Assembly (NCBI GenBank): GCA_019636755.1 | Contig: JAHBWZ010000010.1 | Span: 1-64,000, forward strand | Length of the DNA stretch: 64,000 bases | Direction of reading: 5' to 3' | Source of the DNA: Phycisphaeraceae bacterium | Lineage (GTDB): Bacteria; Planctomycetota; Phycisphaerae; Phycisphaerales; SM1A02 | In this document: piece after piece, positions 33,502 through 57,881 of the stretch | Position numbering within the stretch: the stretch's first letter is position 1 | Layout: every line of letters starts with the position of its first letter | Notes under the pieces: generated by a model | Told to the model about the DNA's origin: nothing | What the model saw: only the letters and a program-made list of their open reading frames with translations | The model's database searches: none | Program-made: the position numbers and the translations under genes

Positions 33502-34722
33502 TCAGAACCGGATGTCCCGGGGCGCCTGCAGGTCCCAGCGGCGCCGGACGAAGACGATCCGCGCGCGATCGCGGCGGAGCCTGCGGTATCCCAGCGCGTG
33601 CACCAGCTCCGTGGCGAGGAATCGCGCCACCCGCATGTTCACCACGATCGCGTTGGGGAGATCGGGGTGGCGGCTCACACCCGGCAGCAGAGTGAGCAGC
33701 GATCCCGCGCGCAGGCGGCGAAGAACCCGGGATGTGACGAGCCAGACCCGGCCGATGGGACGCGCCAGGAAGTACCCGTCGCTGCCCTGGGCCTGGTAGA
33801 GCGGCAGGAGAATCCGGCTGGCGTGCGGCGCCAGGACGGGACCGCGCACGTCGTCGGCCAGTGCTTCGCCGGCCCGCACCGGCGCCAGGTTGCGGTACCC
33901 GGGCCGCATCCTGAAGCGGTCCGCCGGCAGGATGGCGTGGCGGAGCCGGAGGTCCAGGAGGTCCGGCACGGACCGGCTGCTGGCCGCGAGCAGCCGGTGA
34001 TCATCGGCGGGATCCGGCATGTCCCCGGGCTCGACGTGACCGGCGTGCATGAGCGCCAGGCGCACGGCCGCGGCGAGTCGATCGGCGGAATCCGGATCGT
34101 CGTGCCGGCCGCCCTCGACCACGGCGGAGATGCAGCCGACGTCGGTCAGGAAGTCGGTGACCGTGCCCGGCAGTTCCTCGACCAGGCCCAGGATGCGCGG
34201 CAGCGGCCAGCACTCGGCGAAGCGCCGGTTGCGGAGCGTGTCCGCGAAGACCACGAAGGGCGGACCCTCCGCGGAGAACGTGTGCAGGTCGATCGCGTAC
34301 ACCTCGTGTCCACGATCATGCGCCCGCAGTTCGGCGCGCACGGCCTCGAGCAGCGCGTCCCGCTCGGTGCGTTCCGTCTCGCCCACCGGCTCCTCCAGCG
34401 GGGGCGCCTCCGGGTGCGAGAACGCCCGGTTCAGGTCCGAGTCCAGGAAGCGGACCCGTGCCGAGAGCGCCGGCACGTTCCCGATGAGGACCACGACCCG
34501 TCCACGACCGGAGACCGCGCGGCGCTCGAGATCATCGACCACGCGCCGCGCGGCGAGTACGCCCTTGGGCTCGTTGCCGTGCAGGGCGGCGATGATGATG
34601 GTCGTCGGACCCGGCTGCCCGCCGGTCCATCGCGCACAGACGCGCGTCATGGGTGGTTCGACCGGACAGGGAGTTCGAACGGCGGGCATCGGCATCCGTG
34701 GGTCGAGGAGATGCGCGCTCAT
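33502..34722 (-). CDS. Succinylglutamate desuccinylase/aspartoacylase-like zinc hydrolase
   Basis: A 406-residue protein of the M14-like AstE/AspA group. IIAALHGNEPKG supplies the HxxE zinc pair and YAIDLHTFSAEGPPF the third ligand His. The C-terminal half (about 250-406) is a beta-rich region with VWLVTSRVLRRL. Family members remove an N-acyl group from amino acids (succinylglutamate, acetylaspartate). It overlaps the upstream GCS2-CBS gene by 4 bp. A hydrolase coupled to an amide-bond-forming ligase suggests formation and turnover of one compound. Substrate cannot be deduced. Confidence 0.82.
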   Translation of the reverse strand: MSAHLLDPRMPMPAVRTPCPVEPPMTRVCARWTGGQPGPTTIIIAALHGNEPKGVLAARRVVDDLERRAVSGRGRVVVLIGNVPALSARVRFLDSDLNRAFSHPEAPPLEEPVGETERTERDALLEAVRAELRAHDRGHEVYAIDLHTFSAEGPPFVVFADTLRNRRFAECWPLPRILGLVEELPGTVTDFLTDVGCISAVVEGGRHDDPDSADRLAAAVRLALMHAGHVEPGDMPDPADDHRLLAASSRSVPDLLDLRLRHAILPADRFRMRPGYRNLAPVRAGEALADDVRGPVLAPHASRILLPLYQAQGSDGYFLARPIGRVWLVTSRVLRRLRAGSLLTLLPGVSRHPDLPNAIVVNMRVARFLATELVHALGYRRLRRDRARIVFVRRRWDLQAPRDIRF

Positions 34723-36833
34723 GTCGACTCCGGCGCGCCGGCGTCGGGCGGCGCGGTGCGGAGCTGCTGTTCGAGAAGCTGGCCGGCGATCCGCATGAAG
34801 TCATGCTCGGTGATCAGTCCGACGAGTCGCCCGTCCTGCACCACCGGCAGGCAGGAGACCTTGTGCTCCCGCATCAGGCGGATCCCGTCGAGCGTCGACG
34901 TCGTGGGCGTCACCGTGACGGGATCCTTGCGCATGATGTCGGTCACGGGTATCGACGCCGGATCCCCGAGCCGCCCCGCCTGGAGCTGGCGCGCGAGGTA
35001 TGTGAGCATGGCCCGGTAGGTCACGATGCCGACCAGCCGATGGGACGAGTCTTCCACCGGCACATGGCGCACGCGTTCCCAGTCCATCAGCGAGATGACC
35101 AGATCGAGCGTGTCATCGGGCTGCACGGTGAACAGTTCCGTGGTCATGTACTGCCCGACGCGCTGGAAGTTGCGCGTCCAGCCGCCGCCCTCGTCCAGGT
35201 ACGCGGTCGACCATTCGTGCACGGGATGGACCGGCACGCCGGGCTGCGGATGCTGCCGGTGGAAGATCCCGGCCGTCAGCGCGGCGAGGCGTTCCGCACG
35301 GCTGCCCTGGTTCCGCATCTCCGCCGCGGACGAGAGGAGCCACTGGGCGCCGGTGCGTCGCGTCCGGACACGTTCCTCGATCACGCCGAGCAGCCGCTCG
35401 ATGTCCGCGGAGTCGATCGCGGCACGGACCAGTCCGGCGCGCGACATCGGCAGAAGTTCGTTCAGGATGAGATCCCGCGCGGAGATGTAGCGTCCGCCCA
35501 GCCAGAGGAACTCCGCGTGCATGCCCTGGCGGGCGGCGGCGAGGAAGTTTGAGCGTGCCTCGTCGAACTGGAGCTGCGAAGTCACGTCACCGAGCACCTG
35601 GGTTGCCTCGTGCATGAGGCCCCACCAGAAGGCGCCGTTCGCCATCTCGTCCAGGATCGTGGGGCCCGCGGGCAGGAGACGGTTCTCGATGCGCAGGTGC
35701 GGGCGCCCGTCGGAGACGCCGTAGCACAGCCGGTTCCATCGATAGATGGTCGAGTTGAACAGCCCGAGCGCCTGGAGTTTCGGCGCGCGACCCGCGTCGA
35801 GGGCCGCGAACGGATCCTCGTTCTCCTCGCGGCCGAGAATGATGCGAAGGCGGGAGATGTCCGCGCGGTAGATCTCGAGCGGTGAGGCATCGATCCATCG
35901 CTCACCGAACCGCACGCGTCCCAGGAACTCCCGCTCGAACGGCGTCCGGCCGCGGGCGTCGACGGTCTGCTGGAAGATCGCGATGCGCGTCTCGCGCCAG
36001 AGCCGGCGTCCGAACAGCATCGGGCTGTTCGCCGCACAGGACAGGACCGGCGCCGCGAGCGCCTGCGCCAGGTTGTACTGCAGCGCGAAGAGCGCCGGCT
36101 CCACCTGGTAGTGCACCTGGAACGACGTGTTCAGCGCCTCCAGCAGCACGTTGTCGTGCGTGACGGTCAGTTCGTCGATCCCCTGGAGATTGAGTTCGTA
36201 CGACCCGCCGCGCGCCGCGGTGATCGCGTCGTTGAGCGCGAAGTACCTCGGGCGGTCCGCGATGTTCGTCAGAGACAGGTGCTCCTTCGCCAGGGTCGGG
36301 AGGATCCCGGTGAACACCACGTCCGCGCCGTGCCGGCGGCACGCGGCGCGCGTCAGCGCCACGACCTCGTTGAGTTCCGCCTCCATCTCGCGCAGCGCCG
36401 CGCCGGTGAATACCCGCGGTGCGACGTTGCACTCCAGGTTGAACCGGGCGACCTCGGTGGTGACCCGCGGATCCTCGATGTCCGCCAGGATCTCCATCGC
36501 CGCCGGGCGCGGCTGCCAGTCGCGGTCGATCAGCACCATCTCCTGTTCTGCGCCGATCCGGCAGATTCCGGACTCGAAGCGTCCCTCCTCGAGCATCTGC
36601 TCCATGGCGCGCAGGTCGCGGAGGATCGCCTTCATGAACCGGCTGCGCTCATCGGGCGACAGGTGCGCCTTGACCTCGTGCTTCGCCGAACTGACCTCGG
36701 CCGGCGCGGCGGGCACCCGGGGCGGCGCCGCCGGTCCGGGCCCGCCGCCGGGCGGCGCGGCCTGCGGGGACACCGCTCTCGCGGCGGGCGCGGACGCCGG
36801 GGATGGGATCGACGGCTCGGGGATGGTGCTCAT
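34719..36833 (-). CDS. GCS2-type glutamate-cysteine ligase-like enzyme fused to CBS pair
   Basis: A 704-residue protein. Residues 1-50 are Ala/Pro-rich linker. Residues about 60-440 match carboxylate-amine ligases of the GCS2 group (IGAEQEMVLIDRDWQP, FNLECNVAPRVF, then HLRIENRLLPAGPTILDEMANGAF), where the acidic residues bind Mg-ATP. Residues about 540-690 carry two CBS motifs (MTTELFTVQPDDTLDLVISLMDWERVRHVPVED and DIMRKDPVTVTPTTSTLDGIRLM, each in pieces), which may sense an adenine nucleotide. It should join an acidic amino acid's carboxyl to an amine. ATG 36833 is chosen; ATG 36854 would add seven residues. Partner hydrolase follows immediately. Confidence 0.8.
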   Translation of the reverse strand: MSTIPEPSIPSPASAPAARAVSPQAAPPGGGPGPAAPPRVPAAPAEVSSAKHEVKAHLSPDERSRFMKAILRDLRAMEQMLEEGRFESGICRIGAEQEMVLIDRDWQPRPAAMEILADIEDPRVTTEVARFNLECNVAPRVFTGAALREMEAELNEVVALTRAACRRHGADVVFTGILPTLAKEHLSLTNIADRPRYFALNDAITAARGGSYELNLQGIDELTVTHDNVLLEALNTSFQVHYQVEPALFALQYNLAQALAAPVLSCAANSPMLFGRRLWRETRIAIFQQTVDARGRTPFEREFLGRVRFGERWIDASPLEIYRADISRLRIILGREENEDPFAALDAGRAPKLQALGLFNSTIYRWNRLCYGVSDGRPHLRIENRLLPAGPTILDEMANGAFWWGLMHEATQVLGDVTSQLQFDEARSNFLAAARQGMHAEFLWLGGRYISARDLILNELLPMSRAGLVRAAIDSADIERLLGVIEERVRTRRTGAQWLLSSAAEMRNQGSRAERLAALTAGIFHRQHPQPGVPVHPVHEWSTAYLDEGGGWTRNFQRVGQYMTTELFTVQPDDTLDLVISLMDWERVRHVPVEDSSHRLVGIVTYRAMLTYLARQLQAGRLGDPASIPVTDIMRKDPVTVTPTTSTLDGIRLMREHKVSCLPVVQDGRLVGLITEHDFMRIAGQLLEQQLRTAPPDAGAPEST

Positions 36834-49051: not shown

Positions 49052-50275
49052 TCAGGGCCGGGCGCGGACCCGGATCGTCCGACCCACGTCGTCCAGGATC
49101 TCGCGCAGCCGATCGTAGTCCGGATGGCGCAGCCGGACCCAGGCATTCGCCATGTAGCCGCCCTCCACGCCCTGCGTCGCGGTGCCGACGGGCGGGAAGT
49201 GGGCATCGATGATCGCGTCGCCGTAGCGCTGATGGACGTCCGCGAGTCCCTCGTATCCCGCGATCCGACCGTCCGTGTCCGGCCGCAGCGCGATCATGCC
49301 CGCGGCATACCGGCGACTGGCGCGGTCACCGGTCCGTCCCCGGGTGATCGCGAGCGCCCACTCCCGGTACAGGCTCATGTCGTTTGCGGCGCAGTAGAGA
49401 TCCCACATGCCGACGCCCGGCGGCCGGCAGCCGATCTCGGAGAACTTCAGTCCCTTCGGCCCGAAGAACCACTCCATGTGGACCGCGGATGTCCCGATGC
49501 CCAGGCTTCGGATGACATGCCGGCCGAGTTCGCGGACGTCGCGATACGACTCCAGGTCGATCCGGTTGGTCGTGACGATCTGGGGCGAGATCCAGCGGGT
49601 CCGCATCGCCTCGAGCACACCGGGGAAGTAGTGCGAGATGAACTCGTGGACGACTTCGCCGTCGATGCACAGCGCGTCGAAGAATCCCTCGTGTCCCTCG
49701 ATGAACTCCTCGGCGGCGATCGACTGGCCGCGATCGATGCCGTGCCGGCGGATCGCGTCCTCCATCATCGCGTCGTCGTCCACGCGCTCCGCGCCGGAGG
49801 CGCCGGCGCCGGCCCTGGGCTTGAGGATGACCGGGTACCCCGCGCGCCGTGCGAACGCGAATGCCTCCTCCCGCGAACCGACCGCCGTCGACTGCGCACA
49901 CGGGACTCCCGCGCGACGGAGCACCTCCTTCATCGAGGGCTTGTCGCGGCAGAACCAGGCGGTCTCGACCGTCGTGCCGGGAATGCCGGCGGCCTCGCGG
50001 ACACGGGCGACGGGAAGAATGTGCGCCTCCACCACCGCCTCGAGCCGGTCGATCCAGCCGCGCGACTGGATCCGCCGGACCGCTTCCAGCAGCGATGGTT
50101 CATGACAGACCGACGGCACCTGCTCGTAGTGCACGAGTCGCCGCCGGATCTCGTCCGGCATCGCCGCGGCGGACGACTCGCCCACCGCGCTGACGGCCGC
50201 GCCGACATCGGCGAGCGCGTGGACGAACTGCCGCTGGTTTGCCGGGAAGGATGGCTCGACGAAGATGACGTGCAT
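49052..50275 (-). CDS. ATP-grasp ligase A
   Basis: A 407-residue protein beginning MHVIFVEPSFPANQRQFVHAL, a Rossmann-type pre-ATP-grasp domain (about 1-100). The ATP-grasp region (about 110-320) has KPSMKEVLRRAGVP, GYPVILKPRAGAGASGAERV (phosphate-binding loop; Lys), AAEEFIEGHEGFFDAL and the Mg-binding FSEIGCRPPG at the end. It joins a carboxylate to an amine through an acyl phosphate; the substrate is unknown. GAGG lies 5 nt before ATG 50275. It is divergent, across a 76-bp spacer, from the S51-like gene that starts the four-gene unit at 50352. Confidence 0.8.
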   Translation of the reverse strand: MHVIFVEPSFPANQRQFVHALADVGAAVSAVGESSAAAMPDEIRRRLVHYEQVPSVCHEPSLLEAVRRIQSRGWIDRLEAVVEAHILPVARVREAAGIPGTTVETAWFCRDKPSMKEVLRRAGVPCAQSTAVGSREEAFAFARRAGYPVILKPRAGAGASGAERVDDDAMMEDAIRRHGIDRGQSIAAEEFIEGHEGFFDALCIDGEVVHEFISHYFPGVLEAMRTRWISPQIVTTNRIDLESYRDVRELGRHVIRSLGIGTSAVHMEWFFGPKGLKFSEIGCRPPGVGMWDLYCAANDMSLYREWALAITRGRTGDRASRRYAAGMIALRPDTDGRIAGYEGLADVHQRYGDAIIDAHFPPVGTATQGVEGGYMANAWVRLRHPDYDRLREILDDVGRTIRVRARP

Positions 50276-50334
50276 GGGCGCCTCGTGACGGGGGCGCGGG
50301 CATGCTACCGCGCCGCGTGACACCCGCGACGCCG

Positions 50335-50340
50335 TACAAT
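50335..50340 (+). promoter_or_regulatory. -10 box (TACAAT) before S51-like gene
   Basis: TACAAT ends 11 nt before ATG 50352. On the minus strand TAGCAT (50302-50307) could serve the divergent ATP-grasp gene. Confidence 0.55.
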
Positions 50341-50351
50341 CCGCGTCCCCC

Positions 50352-51296
50352 ATGGGCCCGATCGTCCTCCTCGGTCCACAGCGTCTTGATCCCGTCGTGG
50401 CCGAGTTCGTTCGCGCCGCGGGCATCACCGGTCGGATTGCGCTTCTGACCGCCGGCTGGGAAGAACGCGAAGCGGAAGACGACGAACTCTCCGCCCATCT
50501 CGGCGGACGCACCGTGAATCTCGGCCTCTATCGACGGCAGGAGGAAATCCTGGCCGCGGAGGCCGGGCTGCGCGCGGCGATCCACGCCTATGACGCCGAG
50601 CTGGACACCATCCGCCGCCACTACCGCCTGCGCCTGGGATTCGCGCTGGATGCGGCCAGAGCACTGCTCAACCTCGGCGGGGACTCGCCGCACCTGGTGC
50701 TCGATCGGGCCGGCGCCATCGAGACCGTCCGGCGGCTGGACGCGGAACTGCTCACCCGCGTCGCATCGCTCCGGGCGGAAGTGGCGAGCCGCCTGCGACT
50801 GCCCTCCCACCCGCTGGTCGCCCGCCACAAGGCGGAGATCCGCTCGCTCATCGACGGGTGCGACGCCGTGGCCATCGCGGGCGGGCACGTGGGCGTGCTC
50901 TCGCGCGTCCTGCGCATCTTCGACCTCGTCGACATGCTCGGTACCCGACCGCTCTTCGCGTGGTCCGCGGGCGCGATGGTGATCGGCGAACGGATCGTGC
51001 TCTTCCACGACCACCCGCCGCAGGGTGCGGGCAACTCGGAGGTGCACGACCACGGCCTCGGGCTCTTCACCGGACTGCTGCCGCTGCCGCATGCCCGGCG
51101 CCGGCTCCGGCTGGCGGATCCCAACCGCGTGCGGCTCTTCGCCAGGCGCCACGAGCCCCGCCGCCTGGCCCTCATGAACGAAGGCAGTGCCCTGGTCATC
51201 GATCGCGGGCGGATCGCCCGGCACACGAAGGTCCGGACGGTGTCCCTGGACGGCGCGGTCATCGACTGGCCCGGACCCGGGAGTCCCGGCCGATGA
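50352..51296 (+). CDS. Peptidase S51/cyanophycinase-like protein
   Basis: A 314-residue protein of the class I glutamine-amidotransferase-like fold. AVAIAGGHVGVL (173-183) and FAWSAGAMVIGE (202-213) with Ser205 as presumed nucleophile match the S51 group (cyanophycinase, dipeptidase E). A charged helical insert of about 100 residues (60-165, QEEILAAEAGLRAAI and other helices) separates the N-terminal strand from the core, which is unusual. It likely cleaves an acidic-residue or isopeptide-type bond. Its stop overlaps the esterase start, and ATP-grasp genes flank it, so product turnover is a natural role. Confidence 0.75.
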   Translation: MGPIVLLGPQRLDPVVAEFVRAAGITGRIALLTAGWEEREAEDDELSAHLGGRTVNLGLYRRQEEILAAEAGLRAAIHAYDAELDTIRRHYRLRLGFALDAARALLNLGGDSPHLVLDRAGAIETVRRLDAELLTRVASLRAEVASRLRLPSHPLVARHKAEIRSLIDGCDAVAIAGGHVGVLSRVLRIFDLVDMLGTRPLFAWSAGAMVIGERIVLFHDHPPQGAGNSEVHDHGLGLFTGLLPLPHARRRLRLADPNRVRLFARRHEPRRLALMNEGSALVIDRGRIARHTKVRTVSLDGAVIDWPGPGSPGR

Positions 51297-52429
51297 CGAC
51301 CACGCTCGACCGGGTGATCGAGGCCGCCCGCGACCGCGCGTCGCTCGAGGATCTCCTGCGCGAGCATCCGTTCCCCGTCACGGAGGGAACCACGGCCACG
51401 TTCCTGTTCCACGGCCCGGCGGACGAAGTGCAGCTGAAGCACTGGATCTACGGGCTCGCGTCCCAGCTGCCGTTCAACCGCATCACCGGCACCGACGCGT
51501 GGTACCTCCAGATGGAACTGCCGCGGCAGTCCCGCGTGGAGTACAAACTCCTGGTCCGCACGGGCGACCACTGGGCACTTGTCCGCGATCCGCTGAATCC
51601 CCAGCTCGCGACCGACCCCTACGGGGCGAACTCGGTGGTGCACGGCGAGGGATATGAACGGCCCGAATGGACGTGGCCGGACAGCGAGGCACGGCCCGGC
51701 ACGATCGTCGATACGCGCGTCCGTTCCCATGCCCTGGGCGGTGACCGGCACCTGCGGGTCTACCTGCCGCCGCGCATGCGCCCCAGCCGGCGCTACCCGC
51801 TGCTCATCATGCACGACGGCGAGGACTACCTGCGGTTCGCAAGCCTGCAGGCGATCCTGGACACGCTGATCTACCGCTTCGAGATCCCGCAGATGATCGT
51901 CGCCCTGACGCAGTCGCCGAACCGCCTGAAGGAGTACGCGGCGGACGAGGCGCACGGCCGGTTCCTGCTCAACGAACTCATCCCGGCGCTGGAGTCGAAG
52001 TTCCCCGTCGATCCACGGCCCGAGATGCGCGGACTCGGCGGCGCGTCATTCGGCGCGGTGGCGTCCCTGGCCGCGGCGTGGATGCATCCCGGGGCCTTCG
52101 GCGGCCTGCTGCTCCAGTCGGGATCCTTCGCGTTCACGGACATCGGGGATCACCATCCGCGCGGTCCGCTCTTCGATCCCGTCGTCCGGTTCATGAACCG
52201 CTTCCGCGCGTCCCCCGGCGACCCGGCGCGGCGGATCTTCGTCTCCTGCGGAACCTACGAGTCCCTCATCTACGAGAACCGCTCCCTGGCCCCGCTGCTG
52301 CAGTCCACCGCCGCCGACATCCGGTACGTCGAGTCGCGCGACGGGCACAACTGGGAGAACTGGCGGGACCGGCTGCGTGAAGGTCTCGCCTGGCTCTTTC
52401 CCGGGCCGTTGTGGATGGTCTACGAGTAG
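51293..52429 (+). CDS. Alpha/beta-hydrolase esterase with N-terminal beta domain (Fes-like)
   Basis: A 378-residue protein. Residues 30-125 form an immunoglobulin-like/CBM48-type beta domain as in enterochelin esterases (FLFHGPADEVQLKHWIYG, YLQMELP, RVEYKLLV). The catalytic domain follows: RVYLPPRMRPSRRYPLLIMHDGEDYL (pieces), nucleophile Ser252 in GGASFGAVAS, and His352 in DGHNWENW. No signal peptide, so it is cytoplasmic like Fes. It hydrolyses esters or amides of a bulky molecule. It overlaps the S51-like gene by 4 bp and is followed 144 bp later by the second ATP-grasp gene. Confidence 0.82.
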   Translation: MTTTLDRVIEAARDRASLEDLLREHPFPVTEGTTATFLFHGPADEVQLKHWIYGLASQLPFNRITGTDAWYLQMELPRQSRVEYKLLVRTGDHWALVRDPLNPQLATDPYGANSVVHGEGYERPEWTWPDSEARPGTIVDTRVRSHALGGDRHLRVYLPPRMRPSRRYPLLIMHDGEDYLRFASLQAILDTLIYRFEIPQMIVALTQSPNRLKEYAADEAHGRFLLNELIPALESKFPVDPRPEMRGLGGASFGAVASLAAAWMHPGAFGGLLLQSGSFAFTDIGDHHPRGPLFDPVVRFMNRFRASPGDPARRIFVSCGTYESLIYENRSLAPLLQSTAADIRYVESRDGHNWENWRDRLREGLAWLFPGPLWMVYE

Positions 52430-52508
52430 TCGCCTTTCCGGCCGACCACGCGGCGCCGGAGGCCGCGGCGCCCACCGCGACGCGCTGCGCGCGCCTTCGC
52501 GGACCCGG

Positions 52509-52514
52509 TATAGT
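52509..52514 (+). promoter_or_regulatory. -10 box (TATAGT) upstream of ATP-grasp B
   Basis: TATAGT about 60 nt before GTG 52574, giving a leader of about 52 nt; the second half of the cluster may therefore have its own promoter. Confidence 0.45.
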
Positions 52515-52573
52515 CCCCGACGTTCCCCCTGCGCGGCCCGTCCCCTTTTCCCCTTCGCTCGCGGAGCATCTCC

Positions 52574-53854
52574 GTGGCCCAGATCACACGACTCATCGGT
52601 CTTTCTCTCGGTGCCGATCTCTGCTGGCCCATCTGCTACGAGGAGATCCTCGCGCGGCTGAACCTGCGCATCCCGACGGGATCCGACACCGTCCGACTGG
52701 AAACCGAGCGCGTCACCATCGAGCCGTTCGACCTTGAACAGCCGTGCCGCTACGCGGTGGTCCTCGACCGTGTCACGCACTGGTATCACACGAGCCGGGA
52801 GTGGATCAAGAAGGCGATCCTTCTCAACGATCTCTACGTCCTGAACAACCCATGGGCCATCCAGTCCATGGAGAAGCAGACGACCTACGCCGCGATGATG
52901 CGCCTGGGCATGCCGATCCCGAAGACGTGGATGGTGCCGCCGAAGGAGTACGAACCGTCGACCGATCTTCAGCCGACGCTGGACCGTTATGCGCGGATCT
53001 TCGACCTGCGCAAGGTGGGCGAGGCGATCGGCTATCCGCTCTTCATGAAGCCGTACGACGGCGGGGCCTGGGTCGGCGTGAGCCGGATCGAGAACGGCGA
53101 CCAGCTCGTCGCGGCCTACGAGGCCAGCGGCAAGCGCCTGATGCACCTGCAGAAAGCCGTCGACGGCTGGGATCTCTTCGTCCGCGCCCTGGGCGTCGGT
53201 CCCCAGGTCCGGCTCATGCGCTACAACCCCGACGCACCGCTGCACGCCCGGTACGAGGTCGCCTTCGACTTCCTCACCGCCGAGGAAGCACACCTGCTCG
53301 GGGAGACCGTCCTGACGATCAACGCGTTCTTCGGCTGGGACTTCAATTCCTGCGAGGCGCTGCGGTCCGAGGGCACGTTCCATCCGATCGACTTCGCCAA
53401 CGCCTGCCCGGACTCCCAGGTCACCAGCCTGCACTTCCACTTCCCGTGGCTCGTGAAGGCGGTCCTGCGCTGGTCGATCTTCTGCGCGGTCACGCGGCGC
53501 CCGATGCGCATGACTCTCAACTGGAAGCCGTTCCTCGACATCGCCGGCGAGGACATCCCGTACCGCGAGCGGCTGCGGAAGTACGCCGCGGTGGCGCGGG
53601 CCCACTTCGAGACGGACCGCTTCGAGGAGTTCTGCACGAAGCACCTCGGTCACCTGGATGAAGTCGCGCTGGAGTTCTTCGGCACCGACCAGGCGCGTGA
53701 CGCGGTCCGGCTCAAGGTGCAGGCGCTCTTCCCGGCGCACGAGGTCGACTCGTTCACCGACCACTTCTGGGGCCTGATCCAGTTCTGGCGCTCGACCGAG
53801 GCGGATCGCCTCGGCCGCTCCGGCACCCCGAAGACGCTGCAGGAGACCACGTGA
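52574..53854 (+). CDS. ATP-grasp ligase B (RimK-like)
   Basis: A 426-residue protein from GTG 52574. The N-terminal 100 residues bear VVLDRVTHWYHTSREWIKKAILL. The ATP-grasp part includes NNPWAIQSMEKQTTYAAMMRLGMPIPKTW (pieces), IGYPLFMKPYDGGAWVGVSRI (nucleotide-binding Lys and glycine loop) and IDFANACPDSQVTS (metal-binding end with the Asp/Asn pair). About 100 residues of helical C-terminal sequence follow. It should form an amide bond on a carboxylate; I do not know the substrate. GTGA overlap with the next esterase gene links the two. Confidence 0.8.
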   Translation: MAQITRLIGLSLGADLCWPICYEEILARLNLRIPTGSDTVRLETERVTIEPFDLEQPCRYAVVLDRVTHWYHTSREWIKKAILLNDLYVLNNPWAIQSMEKQTTYAAMMRLGMPIPKTWMVPPKEYEPSTDLQPTLDRYARIFDLRKVGEAIGYPLFMKPYDGGAWVGVSRIENGDQLVAAYEASGKRLMHLQKAVDGWDLFVRALGVGPQVRLMRYNPDAPLHARYEVAFDFLTAEEAHLLGETVLTINAFFGWDFNSCEALRSEGTFHPIDFANACPDSQVTSLHFHFPWLVKAVLRWSIFCAVTRRPMRMTLNWKPFLDIAGEDIPYRERLRKYAAVARAHFETDRFEEFCTKHLGHLDEVALEFFGTDQARDAVRLKVQALFPAHEVDSFTDHFWGLIQFWRSTEADRLGRSGTPKTLQETT

Positions 53855-54597
53855 AACTATCCGTCGACTGGCATTCGCCTCGACTGAGGCAGACGGTGCA
53901 GGTGCGCCGCTGGGGCCACTTCGGCCGCCCGGTCCTCGTGTTTCCGACCGCCGGCGGCGACGCCGAGGAGATCGAGCGGTTCCTGATGCTGCGCGTCCTG
54001 GACCCGCTCATCCAGGAAGGCCGCATCAAGGTGTATTCCTGCGACTCCGTGGCCGGCGCGGCGTGGGTGAAGGGTGACACGAATCCGCGGCACGCGGCGT
54101 GGGTGCAGAACCAGTTCGACGGTTTCATCTACCACGAACTGGTCCCCGCGATCCGGGCGGACTGCGGCCATGCCGACGTGGACATCATCGCCGCCGGCGC
54201 GTCGATCGGTGCCTACAACGCGGTCGCCTCGGTCTGCCGGCACCCGGACGTCTTCAGTCATGGACTCGGGCTCAGCGGCACGTACGACCTGACGCGCTGG
54301 ATCAAGGGTGAGTGGAGCGCGGACTTCTACTTCTGCTCACCGCTGCACTACCTTCCCGGGCTCAACGACTCGGCGCAGCTCCGCCGGCTTCGCGAACGCT
54401 TCATCATCCTCGCCACCGGCGAAGGACGCTGGGAGTCGCCGAAGGAATCGTGGGACATGGCCCGCGTGCTCGGAGATAAGGGCGTTCCGAACCGCGTCGA
54501 CCTGTGGGGGAAGGACCGCGACCACGACTGGACGACCTGGCGGGAGATGCTGCCGAAGTACCTCGGGGACCTGACCGCGGGCGACCCGCGGCCGTGA
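53851..54597 (+). CDS. Alpha/beta-hydrolase esterase, short form
   Basis: A 248-residue protein beginning at a GTG that overlaps the ATP-grasp B stop. GASIGAYNAVA holds the nucleophile Ser118, FPTAGGDAEE is the oxyanion region, and DRDHDWTTW near the end provides His. It belongs to the esterase/PHB-depolymerase-like group that commonly accompanies ATP-grasp genes, as far as I recall. Cytoplasmic. A likely role is release or editing of the ATP-grasp product. Confidence 0.8.
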   Translation: MKLSVDWHSPRLRQTVQVRRWGHFGRPVLVFPTAGGDAEEIERFLMLRVLDPLIQEGRIKVYSCDSVAGAAWVKGDTNPRHAAWVQNQFDGFIYHELVPAIRADCGHADVDIIAAGASIGAYNAVASVCRHPDVFSHGLGLSGTYDLTRWIKGEWSADFYFCSPLHYLPGLNDSAQLRRLRERFIILATGEGRWESPKESWDMARVLGDKGVPNRVDLWGKDRDHDWTTWREMLPKYLGDLTAGDPRP

Positions 54598-54618
54598 CGC
54601 CCTTCCCTGGCCCCCGGG

Positions 54619-54682
54619 CCTTGACGCCCTGCCTTGACCCCCGGGCCTTGACCCCCGGGGCCTTGACCCCCGGGGCGTGACG
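54619..54682. repeat. Tandem GCCTTGACCCCCGGGG repeat between convergent genes
   Basis: Four consecutive units of 13-16 bp based on CCTTGACNCCC(GGGG), with a final CGTGACG, lie just after the short esterase gene. Each unit includes a CCCCCGGGG self-complementary core, so transcripts could fold. No gene overlaps. Confidence 0.85.
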
Positions 54683-54745
54683 TGCCCGGCGCCCGGACAT
54701 GCCCGCAGGCACGCCGGCAGGCGCGGCCGATCCGCGCGACCACGA

Positions 54746-56971
54746 CTACTCGGGTCGCGCGATGCCGCCGGCCTCCGCCGACACCCCGGGCGCGCCGAGG
54801 TAGCGCGCCAGGTACTCGACGCGGAGCTGCTCCGCGTGGGCGGGCAGGCCGTGACCCGACTCGGGGTAGAGCATCAGGTCGAACCGCAGATTCTTCTGGT
54901 GCAGCACGTGCACCAGTTCGAGCGTCTGGTTGAGATGCACGTTGTCATCGGCCGTGCCGTGCAGCAGCAGGAGCGGATCGGCCAGTCGATGCGCCTGGAC
55001 GACGGCGGACCCCTCGCTGTATCCCTCGGGGTTGTCGTCCGGAAGTCCCATGTACCGCTCCGTGTAGATGGTGTCGTACTGGCGCCAGTCGGTGACGGGC
55101 GATGCCGCCACGCCCGCCGCGAAGAGTCCCGGATGCCGGAGCAGCAGCATGATCGCCATGTACCCGCCGTACGAATGGCCGGCCACGCCGACCCGGGCCG
55201 GGTCGAGCCGCGGCTCCATCGCGAGCAGCGCGCGCATCGCCGCGGCCTGGTCGTCCACGTCCACCGCGCCCAGCCGACCGTACCCCGCCGTCAGAAAGTC
55301 CCGGCCACGTCCGGTGGTGCCGCGGTTGTCGATCTGCACGACCGCCCATCCCAGTGCCCCGTAGGCGTGGCCGGCGCGGTACCGGCCGGTGAGCGCCCGG
55401 GAATCCGGTCCGCCGTACACCTGCAGCATCACGGGGATCGGCGCCGCGCCGTCATCCCCGCGCGACGGCGGGTAGAGCACCGCGTCCAGCATCGTCGTGC
55501 CGTCCGCCGCGGGCACGCGGAAGCGCCGGGGCGACGGTCGCACGGGGCGCTCGGCGCCGGCATCGTGATCCTCAGGCGGCGACAGCTGCGCGATCCGCGT
55601 GCCGTCCGCCGCGCACAGCGTGACGACCGGCGGGTGCTCGGGCGACTGCGCGGTCACGACGAGGAACCGGCCGTCGGGCGAGAACGTGATGTCGTGTCGC
55701 CGCGGCGCCTCGGTCCACCGGTCGGGCCGGCGGTGCGGCGCGCCGGCGTCCCCTGTGTCACGACCGGGCAGCGGTGCCCGCCAGATGTGGCGCACCAGCG
55801 GATCCTCGGGATCCCACGCGGAGAACCAGAGCAGACCGGCGTCGGTGTCGATCCGCTCGACCGCGTCGATGTCCGCACCGGGCACCTCGTAGATCGCATG
55901 ACAGCCGCCGTCCAGGTCGCGCAGTTCGATCCGCCGGAAGCCCGTTTCGTCACTGCCGAACAGGAATCGCCGGCCGTCGTCCAGGAATCGCAGCAGCGGC
56001 CGGTTCTCCTGCCAGCCGGCCGGCTGTGACGCGGTGACGACGATCGACGCCGTCTGCGCCAGCGGATCCCACGAAACGACCTCCAGGTTCCGCTGCAGTC
56101 GCGTCGTCCTGGAGAAGAGCAGTCGCGGCGGCGCGTCGCCCTCGCCCGGCGACGGCGCCCACTGCACCCGGTAGATGTACCACTCCGGCTCCGCGGGATC
56201 GGCCAGGGCATGGACGTCGACCACGTGGGTCTCGCCGGTCTCCATCGAGAGCACGTGCAGTCCGACCGTCGGGTTCCGATCACCGGACTTGGGATACCGC
56301 TCCTCCTCGAACATGATGAAGCGCCCGGTCCAGCCGCGCGGGAGGCGATAGGGCGTCACGTGGCGCTCGTCGAACCGGTAGAACGCAAGAAACCGCGCGT
56401 CGGGCGACCACCACATGGCGTCGACCTGGTTGAGTTCCTCGCCGTACACCCAGCTCGCGCGGCCGTAGGCGATGCCGCCGCCGCCGTCGGTCGTCCGGAA
56501 GAATTCCTCGTTGCCGTCCACGCGCTGCACGATGACGTTGTCATCGCGGCAGGTCGCCAGGAACGTGCCGCACGGGGACGGCTCGCTCGCGCGCTGCCGC
56601 CCGCGCGCGGGACGACGGCCCGACGGCGCCGCGCGCGGCGGCCCGGGCGGAACCAGCGCGTCATCGGCCGCGACCGGGCGGGCGCCAGCGACCAGGTCGA
56701 CCATCTGCCAGGCGCCGCCGCGCTGGAAGAAAAGCCGGCCGCCGACGTCGTCCCAGCGCATCTGTCCGAGCGCGAACCTGCGTTCGAGGCTCATGATCCG
56801 CGACCGCTCGCCGGCGACGAGGTCATGCAGCGCCTGCCGGGGCTGCGCGGCGCTGGCCCGCGGCCGCGGCGCGGCGGTGGCGCCGGCAGGCCCGGTGCCG
56901 CCGTCCGACGCAACGGCGCCACCCAGGAGGGCGAGCGCGATCCCGGCGGCCAGCACGGTGTTCGCGCGCAT
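54746..56971 (-). CDS. Prolyl oligopeptidase family (S9) dipeptidyl peptidase IV-like
   Basis: A 741-residue exported protein (signal peptide 1-21). An N-terminal beta-propeller (about 60-480) includes SWVYGEELNQVDAMWWSPDARFLAFYRFDE (pieces), corresponding to the Glu motif that binds the peptide N-terminus in DPP IV. The alpha/beta-hydrolase domain has Ser in GHSYGGYMAIML, Asp in LHGTADDNVH and His in YPESGHGLP. It releases N-terminal dipeptides in the periplasm. ATG overlaps the pfkB stop; it ends the acnA operon. Confidence 0.93.
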   Translation of the reverse strand: MRANTVLAAGIALALLGGAVASDGGTGPAGATAAPRPRASAAQPRQALHDLVAGERSRIMSLERRFALGQMRWDDVGGRLFFQRGGAWQMVDLVAGARPVAADDALVPPGPPRAAPSGRRPARGRQRASEPSPCGTFLATCRDDNVIVQRVDGNEEFFRTTDGGGGIAYGRASWVYGEELNQVDAMWWSPDARFLAFYRFDERHVTPYRLPRGWTGRFIMFEEERYPKSGDRNPTVGLHVLSMETGETHVVDVHALADPAEPEWYIYRVQWAPSPGEGDAPPRLLFSRTTRLQRNLEVVSWDPLAQTASIVVTASQPAGWQENRPLLRFLDDGRRFLFGSDETGFRRIELRDLDGGCHAIYEVPGADIDAVERIDTDAGLLWFSAWDPEDPLVRHIWRAPLPGRDTGDAGAPHRRPDRWTEAPRRHDITFSPDGRFLVVTAQSPEHPPVVTLCAADGTRIAQLSPPEDHDAGAERPVRPSPRRFRVPAADGTTMLDAVLYPPSRGDDGAAPIPVMLQVYGGPDSRALTGRYRAGHAYGALGWAVVQIDNRGTTGRGRDFLTAGYGRLGAVDVDDQAAAMRALLAMEPRLDPARVGVAGHSYGGYMAIMLLLRHPGLFAAGVAASPVTDWRQYDTIYTERYMGLPDDNPEGYSEGSAVVQAHRLADPLLLLHGTADDNVHLNQTLELVHVLHQKNLRFDLMLYPESGHGLPAHAEQLRVEYLARYLGAPGVSAEAGGIARPE

Positions 56972-57881
56972 CACGCCACCTCCGCCATGCGCCGGAACTC
57001 GGTGAGGCGAGTCTCGAACTCCGCCGGCCGCACCTGGCGCAGGCGCTCCAGCGAGAACGACTCGATCGTGAAACTGGCGGTGACCGTACCGCGCACCAGG
57101 CCCTCGCGGATCGCGGCCAGGTCGGTCCGGCCGACGCGCGCCAGGTGGCCCATGAGGCCGCCGGCGAAGGAGTCTCCGGCGCCGGTCGGATCGATCACCC
57201 GCTCGGCCTCCATCGGGAACGCCGGCAGCGCCGCCACGCCGTCGGCGTGAATCAGCAGGCAGCCGTGCTCCCCCTTCTTGATGATCGCGAATCGAGGTCC
57301 CATGCCCAGGATCGCCCGCCCCGCGCTGACGGCGTTGCGACACTCGGTGAGCTGCGTCGCCTCGCTGTCGTTGAGCACGACGCCGTCCACCCGCCGCAGC
57401 AGCCCCAGGAGTTCTCCGTGCGCGATGTTGATCCAGAGATCCATCGTGTCCACGATCGCGATCGCGCGGTCAGGAAAGTGATCGAGCAGCCGCGCCTGTT
57501 CCGTCGGATGGCTGTTGGCGAGGAAGACGAACCGGCTGTCCCGGTACGCATCCGGGACCCGCGGGCCGGGCTCGCCGAGGACGCCGAGTTCGGTGAAGAG
57601 CGTCTCGCGCGCGTTCATGTCCGGCAGGTAGCGCCCGCCCCACGCGAACGTCCGGCTCGCCGGCCGATGCTCCAGGCCGAGGGTGCAGAGCCCCGGGACC
57701 GAGGTCAGCAGTGCGCGATGCGCCTCCGGCCAGTCGCCGCCCACCGCGGCGACGATGCGGACCGGTGCCTGGATGGCCGCCGCGGTCGCGAAGTAGGCGC
57801 ACGACCCGCCGGGAACCTCGACCGCGCTGCCGGTCGGTGCGTGGATCGTGTCGATGCCGATGCTTCCGGTGACGATCAGGC

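Follow-up and report, generated by a model that had tools for sequence, protein, structure and literature searches.

What do two ATP-grasp ligases, an S51-like protein and two esterases do side by side in a planctomycete? The question is raised by five neighboring genes on a 64,000-nucleotide stretch of Phycisphaeraceae bacterium DNA (contig JAHBWZ010000010.1, positions 1 to 64,000), referred to here as the window. P1 (49052-50275, minus strand, 407 aa) encodes an ATP-grasp ligase nearest in sequence to the L-amino-acid ligases and BacD, and it is divergent from P2 (50352-51296, plus strand, 314 aa), which encodes an S51-like protein of the PepE/cyanophycinase superfamily, as judged by Pfam, a PDB match and alignment. 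The remaining three genes are also on the plus strand. P3 (51293-52429, 378 aa) encodes a Fes/CE1-type esterase with an N-terminal E-set (Fes-N/CBM48-like) domain, P4 (52574-53854, GTG start, 426 aa) a predicted divergent ATP-grasp protein of RimK-like fold, extended by helices at its C-terminus, and P5 (53851-54597, GTG start, 248 aa) a short PF00756 alpha/beta-hydrolase esterase. A preliminary description of this DNA had listed the five genes with these identities and with two overlapping pairs. All five open reading frames (ORFs) are intact and have coding-type GC by codon position (0.86-0.91 at third positions), the 4-bp overlaps are real (ATGA for P2/P3 and GTGA for P4/P5), and the gene identities agree with the Pfam domain calls. 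As set out below, the five genes belong to a larger set found in several phyla, which very probably has a functional tie to alpha-glucan metabolism.

The distribution of the genes was surveyed in 392 genomes of the phylum, which were searched for P1, P2, P4 and a GCS2 amidoligase with two CBS domains (GCS2-CBS). Orthologues of P1, P2 and P4 were found in 40, 38 and 41 genomes, respectively. All three occurred together in 38 of the 42 genomes that have any of them (Fisher P ~1e-49). GCS2-CBS, present in 81 of the 392 genomes overall, was found in 39 of these 42 system genomes versus 42 of the 350 others (P 2e-27). Carriers of the P4 gene are rare within the window's own family (two of 61 genomes searched). 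A scan of 84,980 species returned at least 512 relatives of P4, and the locus counts given here use the best 80 of these, many of which sit on truncated contigs. Acidobacteriota and Myxococcota supply most of these 80 loci; others are from Planctomycetota and Eisenbacteria, and a few are from metagenome-assembled genomes (MAGs) labelled Gammaproteobacteria, Alphaproteobacteria or Actinomycetes. Beside P4, P2 was present in 55 of these loci, P3 in 63 and P5 in 55. Pairwise distances for P2, P3, P4 and P5 correlate at 0.53-0.84, as expected if the genes travel together; related species contribute to this correlation. None of the searched partners was found near the divergent P4 homologues L044-L047 (31-38% identity). 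P1-P5 are part of a conserved gene set common to several phyla and are not chance neighbors. The idea of a conserved make-and-recycle set, put forward in the preliminary description, was borne out by this recurring block. The check proposed there, a neighborhood comparison with distant genomes, showed conserved synteny of the block in Acidobacteriota, Myxococcota, Planctomycetota and a small number of further groups.

Which other genes belong to the set? Clustering of the neighboring genes identified as recurrent partners P1b and P1c, the glycogen synthase GlgA, the ADP-glucose pyrophosphorylase GlgC, GCS2-CBS, and AstE- or FGase-type deacylases. P1b and P1c are further P1-family ATP-grasp proteins (31-38% identity to P1), each forming its own orthologous group. 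The complete set at L169 has 11 contiguous genes in the order P1 (minus strand), P2, P3, P4, P5, GlgA (minus), GlgC (minus), P1b, P1c, GCS2-CBS and AstE, and L168 has the same gene set minus AstE. The myxobacterial order is FGase, GlgA, P1, P2, P3, P4, P5, GCS2-CBS. GCS2-CBS comes immediately after P1c in Planctomycetota and immediately after P5 in Myxococcota, and in relatives AstE follows GCS2-CBS. Some Acidobacteriota loci add GlgX, MalQ and an amylase-like protein. P1-P5, P1b, P1c, GCS2-CBS, AstE/FGase, GlgA and GlgC are one gene set that occurs in several arrangements and several phyla, and it brings four or five predicted amide-bond-forming enzymes next to glycogen-synthesis genes. A set of five genes with an entirely open substrate, as first envisaged, therefore has to be enlarged by GlgA, GlgC, two more ATP-grasp genes, GCS2-CBS and AstE/FGase, and its recurrent partners include genes of glycogen synthesis. 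The amylase-like protein at L055:3126-6536 (minus strand) is 1136 aa long with weak matches to glycogen-debranching glucanotransferase domains, and proteins of this type recur beside P1 in the Acidobacteriota clusters L058, L062 and L096.

The link to glycogen was found in two separate lineages. Of the 80 loci, 26 contain GlgA, and in 22 of those the distance from GlgA to a member gene is at most 520 bp; among the 43 loci with full flanks, GlgA was present in 12. Scores of 525-534 bits with TIGR02095 (cut-off 328) make its identity clear, and GlgC, GlgX and MalQ were also identified at the loci. The GlgA-bearing gene orders clearly differ between Acidobacteriota/Planctomycetota, Myxococcota, L124 (a MAG labelled Gammaproteobacteria) and L114 (a Holophagae MAG). 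The second lineage consists of short divergent P5 and P4 homologues (26-34% identity to the window proteins), encoded elsewhere in the phylum by two divergently oriented neighboring genes. The neighbors of this pair are GlgB, GlgC, GlgA, a plain GCS2 ligase, an aminopeptidase-like gene, an uncharacterized 402-aa protein and glutamine synthetase (L048, L050, L051, L153, L155 and L158), and GlgB overlaps P5 in L048. Some members of this branch, for example L143-L146, have no glycogen-type neighbors of that kind. Since the P4/P5 family adjoins glycogen enzymes in two separate lineages, its substrate appears to be tied to ADP-glucose/alpha-glucan metabolism, and a functional tie of the whole module to alpha-glucan metabolism is very probable. 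The uncharacterized protein is conserved at 402-405 aa in these divergent ATP-grasp/GCS2/GlgB neighborhoods (L050:12589-13797, L048:11596-12813 and L153:5355-6551); it has no Pfam match, and the L050 copy has no NCBIfam match either.

What might the ligases make? P1 matches the ATP-grasp families PF02786 (7e-10) and PF02222 (7e-8), and its top PDB match by phmmer is the L-amino acid ligase 4wd3 (E 3e-14). P1b matches LAL_C2, and the ATP-grasp catalytic residues K112, K152, E189/E190, E268, E280 and R284 are conserved across P1, P1b and P1c in the alignment. Dipeptide synthesis from two amino acids, as in L-amino-acid ligases and BacD, is a putative activity. In contrast to those enzymes, there are three parallel paralogues per genome, they score far under any equivalog cut-off, and no antibiotic cluster accompanies them. 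P4 falls below every Pfam cut-off (Dala_Dala_lig_C, 21.5 bits versus a cut-off of 24) and, from its sequence, is classed as a divergent ATP-grasp family. Lys159, Glu261, Asp273 and Asn276 are invariant in 36 of 36 members. Its predicted structure has a mean predicted local distance difference test score (pLDDT) of 85, and the nearest fold is RimK (Z 20.6, root-mean-square deviation 2.7, 264 residues), with further matches to LysX/ArgX. The model has an extra C-terminal helical region at about residues 318-417, for which no better relative was among the VIA-align matches listed for the whole P4 model.

RimK and LysX/ArgX act on a protein C-terminus or a carrier protein. P4 and the other ligases might likewise attach amino acids to a protein, either a glycogen enzyme or a carrier, with the hydrolases removing them. 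Such post-translational tagging is unlikely. P4 scores 19.4 bits against the RimK family model TIGR00768, far under the cut-off of 143.4, and differs from RimK and LysX/ArgX in its helical extension and in having no carrier protein. Among 95 regions, no small ORF that could encode a conserved carrier or precursor recurred in more than five, and the shared ones look antisense or low-complexity; a LysW-type carrier and a precursor of a ribosomally synthesized and post-translationally modified peptide (RiPP) were ruled out on this basis. An acidic C-terminal tail was absent from all 30 GlgA C-termini, and tagging would leave the esterases without a role. The lack of a conserved precursor ORF also makes a graspetide cluster, a RiPP cluster with ATP-grasp cyclases, highly improbable: MdnC-type macrocyclases are among the Foldseek matches of P4, but RimK is the better fold match and no transporter was among the recurrent families identified. 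The pairing of ATP-grasp and S51-type proteins with a reserve-like logic recalls cyanophycin synthetase and cyanophycinase. However, the cyanophycin synthetase model TIGR02068 gave 33 bits against a cut-off of 850, from its ATP-grasp part alone, and P1 and P4, at 407 and 426 aa, have no Mur ligase, as the preliminary description had held. The cyanophycin system was ruled out for this reason. An anti-phage defense role was also dropped because the PADLOC models gave no match to the five proteins at E 0.01.

The hydrolases may release what the ligases make. P3 matches PF00756 (1e-23) and, weakly, Enterochelin_N, and Ser252 and His352 are invariant in 37 of 37 members. Its model (mean pLDDT 93) aligns with Fes (3mga) at Z 34, showing the complete two-domain architecture of that enzyme, and with CBM48-CE1 esterases at Z 28. 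The architecture and the catalytic Ser and His are shared with these enzymes, whereas identity is about 22% and the context is one of glycogen and ligase genes rather than siderophore or xylan. All profile matches of the N-domain are weak, with CBM_48 in 2 of 37 members at E of at least 0.08 and CBM_20 in 16 at E of at least 0.007; hhalign to GlgB/AMPK-type modules gave 84% over 55 columns. P5 matches PF00756 (5e-8), and its Ser118 and His225 are invariant in 21 of 21 members. P2 scores above threshold for PF03575 Peptidase_S51 (30.5 bits versus a cut-off of 23.9) and has an insert of roughly 100 aa. The whole Fes architecture of P3, next to several ligases, could indicate a siderophore or other secondary-metabolite cluster. 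This is quite improbable given the wide distribution and the recurring glycogen neighbors, and no siderophore biosynthesis, transporter or regulator family was among those recurrent neighbors that were named.

Overall, we tentatively propose that the set works in the cytoplasm as a module for conjugation and release, linked to the synthesis of ADP-glucose/alpha-glucan (glycogen). Reversible amino-acid or peptide chemistry is the likelier part of this proposal, and covalent attachment of a group to the glucan is possible but somewhat doubtful. P1, P1b and P1c, the RimK-like P4 and GCS2-CBS would activate carboxylates with ATP to give an amino-acid or short acidic-peptide group, and the CBS pair of GCS2-CBS could sense the adenylate pool. 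The group would be joined to, or stored with, the alpha-glucan from GlgC-GlgA. P3, whose N-domain is of the same E-set class as the glycogen-binding CBM48, and P5 would release it, and P2 and AstE/FGase would break it down. A possible purpose is the storage of nitrogen or an organic acid together with carbon. Another is control of the solubility or turnover of a glucan apparently made without a recognizable branching enzyme.

The same parts could instead serve a free small peptide or amino-acid conjugate, a nitrogen reserve or compatible solute co-regulated with glycogen as the carbon store and having no covalent link to the glucan. This explanation is a serious one, although its chance is also below even. 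Three L-amino-acid-ligase-like enzymes, a RimK-like ligase, GCS2, an S51-like protein and AstE/FGase are the parts expected of a make-and-recycle pathway, as is the aminopeptidase-like gene of the divergent branch. Glutamate enzymes also lie near glycogen genes, namely an NAD-glutamate dehydrogenase-type gene in the window genome (L142) and glutamine synthetase in L048 and L153. A free peptide alone, however, leaves unexplained two conserved Ser-His esterases, one with a CBM48-class E-set domain, as well as why GlgA lies a few hundred bp away across several phyla with differing gene orders. As far as sequence can suggest, we slightly prefer a group carried on the glucan to a free peptide reserve, because it would account for the pair of esterases, for the E-set domain in P3 and for the close linkage to GlgA. 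The most specific form of the on-glucan proposal is an amino-acyl or acidic-peptide modification of storage alpha-glucan, covalently added by the ligases and removed by dedicated esterases, in GlgC-GlgA hosts without a recognizable branching enzyme. In this full form it is doubtful.

Several observations weigh against the on-glucan proposal. Among the 43 loci with wide flanks, 31 yielded no GlgA, and in the window genome GlgA-GlgC and P1b-P1c are on contigs other than that of P1-P5. Synteny itself indicates a shared pathway or regulation and says nothing about covalent linkage. The Fes match of the P3 N-domain is at least as good as that to CBM48, so that glucan binding is putative. The nucleophile of P2, Ser205, is kept in 28 of 30 aligned orthologues and lost in two, and the position aligned with the His of the PepE triad holds Asp or Gln in several. 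His219 is invariant, next to a nearly invariant Asp220, and could be a substitute catalytic His, but on this alignment the triad is doubtful. The earlier suggestion of an S51 enzyme cutting acidic dipeptides thus stands as to the S51-like profile, whereas the peptidase role is insecure. GlgA and the branching enzyme were further searched for in ten system genomes (G000, G020, G209, G147, G217, G253, G164, G110, G130 and G290). GlgA was over the curated cut-off in all ten and as a single such copy in nine. Neither GH13 GlgB (TIGR01515) nor the GH57 domain (PF09210) was found in any of the ten, with control genomes positive, an absence that rests on these two family models and on draft genomes. 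A branching enzyme of unrecognized type, or an overlooked gene, is possible in these genomes. Nor can a lack of branching be general, given that GlgB accompanies the divergent P4/P5 branch.

In the window genome (G000), the set is split over four places. P1-P5 are at 49.1-54.6 kb, and GCS2-CBS and AstE are 12 kb away in the same window. P1b-P1c are at G000:C12:58357-60844 and GlgA-GlgC at about 398 kb on G000:C1. The GCS2-CBS gene (34719-36833, minus strand, the start being approximate at 36716 or 36833; Pfam GCS2 and two CBS domains) has a 4-bp overlap with the gene for an AstE/AspA-like deacylase (33502-34722, minus strand; PF24827, 6e-18). GlgA at G000:C1:397906 scores 524.5 bits, and the adjoining GlgC is 66% to the GlgC of L055. 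The split may be derived because G020 (L032), of the same family, has P1-P5, GlgA, GlgC, P1b and P1c in one piece. The scattering would also fit a coincidental neighborhood of unrelated metabolic genes, but near-perfect co-occurrence and recurring synteny across phyla refute that explanation and leave it almost no probability. The GCS2-CBS/AstE pair extends beyond the system. It is conserved without the P1-P5 block in L163-L165, L172, L173 and L175 and may therefore constitute a separate small system. Beside GlgA-GlgC on contig 1, the NAD-glutamate dehydrogenase-type gene (L142:6891-12717) runs in the opposite direction. Next to P5 in the window, a DPP-IV-like S9 peptidase gene (54746-56974, minus strand) converges on it and is not among the recurrent partners in relatives. 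Between the two, at 54600-54690, lies a short tandem repeat with an CCTTGACCCCCGGGG-type unit.

How does the set compare with known systems? Neighborhoods of ATP-grasp and GCS2 amidoligases were reportedly surveyed in 2009 by Iyer, Aravind and colleagues (Mol Biosyst 5:1636, cited in PMC8939145). They resemble the present set in placing several peptide ligases of different folds beside peptidases or deacylases. The apparent difference is that the partners here are glycogen enzymes and two PF00756 esterases.

The host pathway, with true GlgA and GlgC by curated models, resembles the standard GlgC-GlgA route to glycogen. It differs in that no branching enzyme was detected in the ten carriers and in the flanking ligases and esterases, which are unmentioned with glycogen in the literature searched. 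In the open literature searched, no description was found of ATP-grasp enzymes with glycogen genes, esterases, S51 or GCS2. A 2024 Chem Rev review on the alpha-glucan enzymes of prokaryotes (PMC11046441) does not use the term 'esterase' in the part searched, and neither this review nor a graspetide paper yielded relevant passages. The ATP-grasp mention in a Nitrospina genome paper refers to ATP citrate lyase and was set aside. The set is akin to the amidoligase neighborhoods, with a real chance that it carries out a new kind of glucan chemistry.

The five orphan enzymes can now be placed in a defined gene set of wide distribution whose class of substrate can be tested, and its carriers include the cultured genus Nannocystis. 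The set points to a mode of building, decorating or co-storing glycogen or a related alpha-glucan in Acidobacteriota, Myxococcota and Planctomycetota that is absent from the literature searched.

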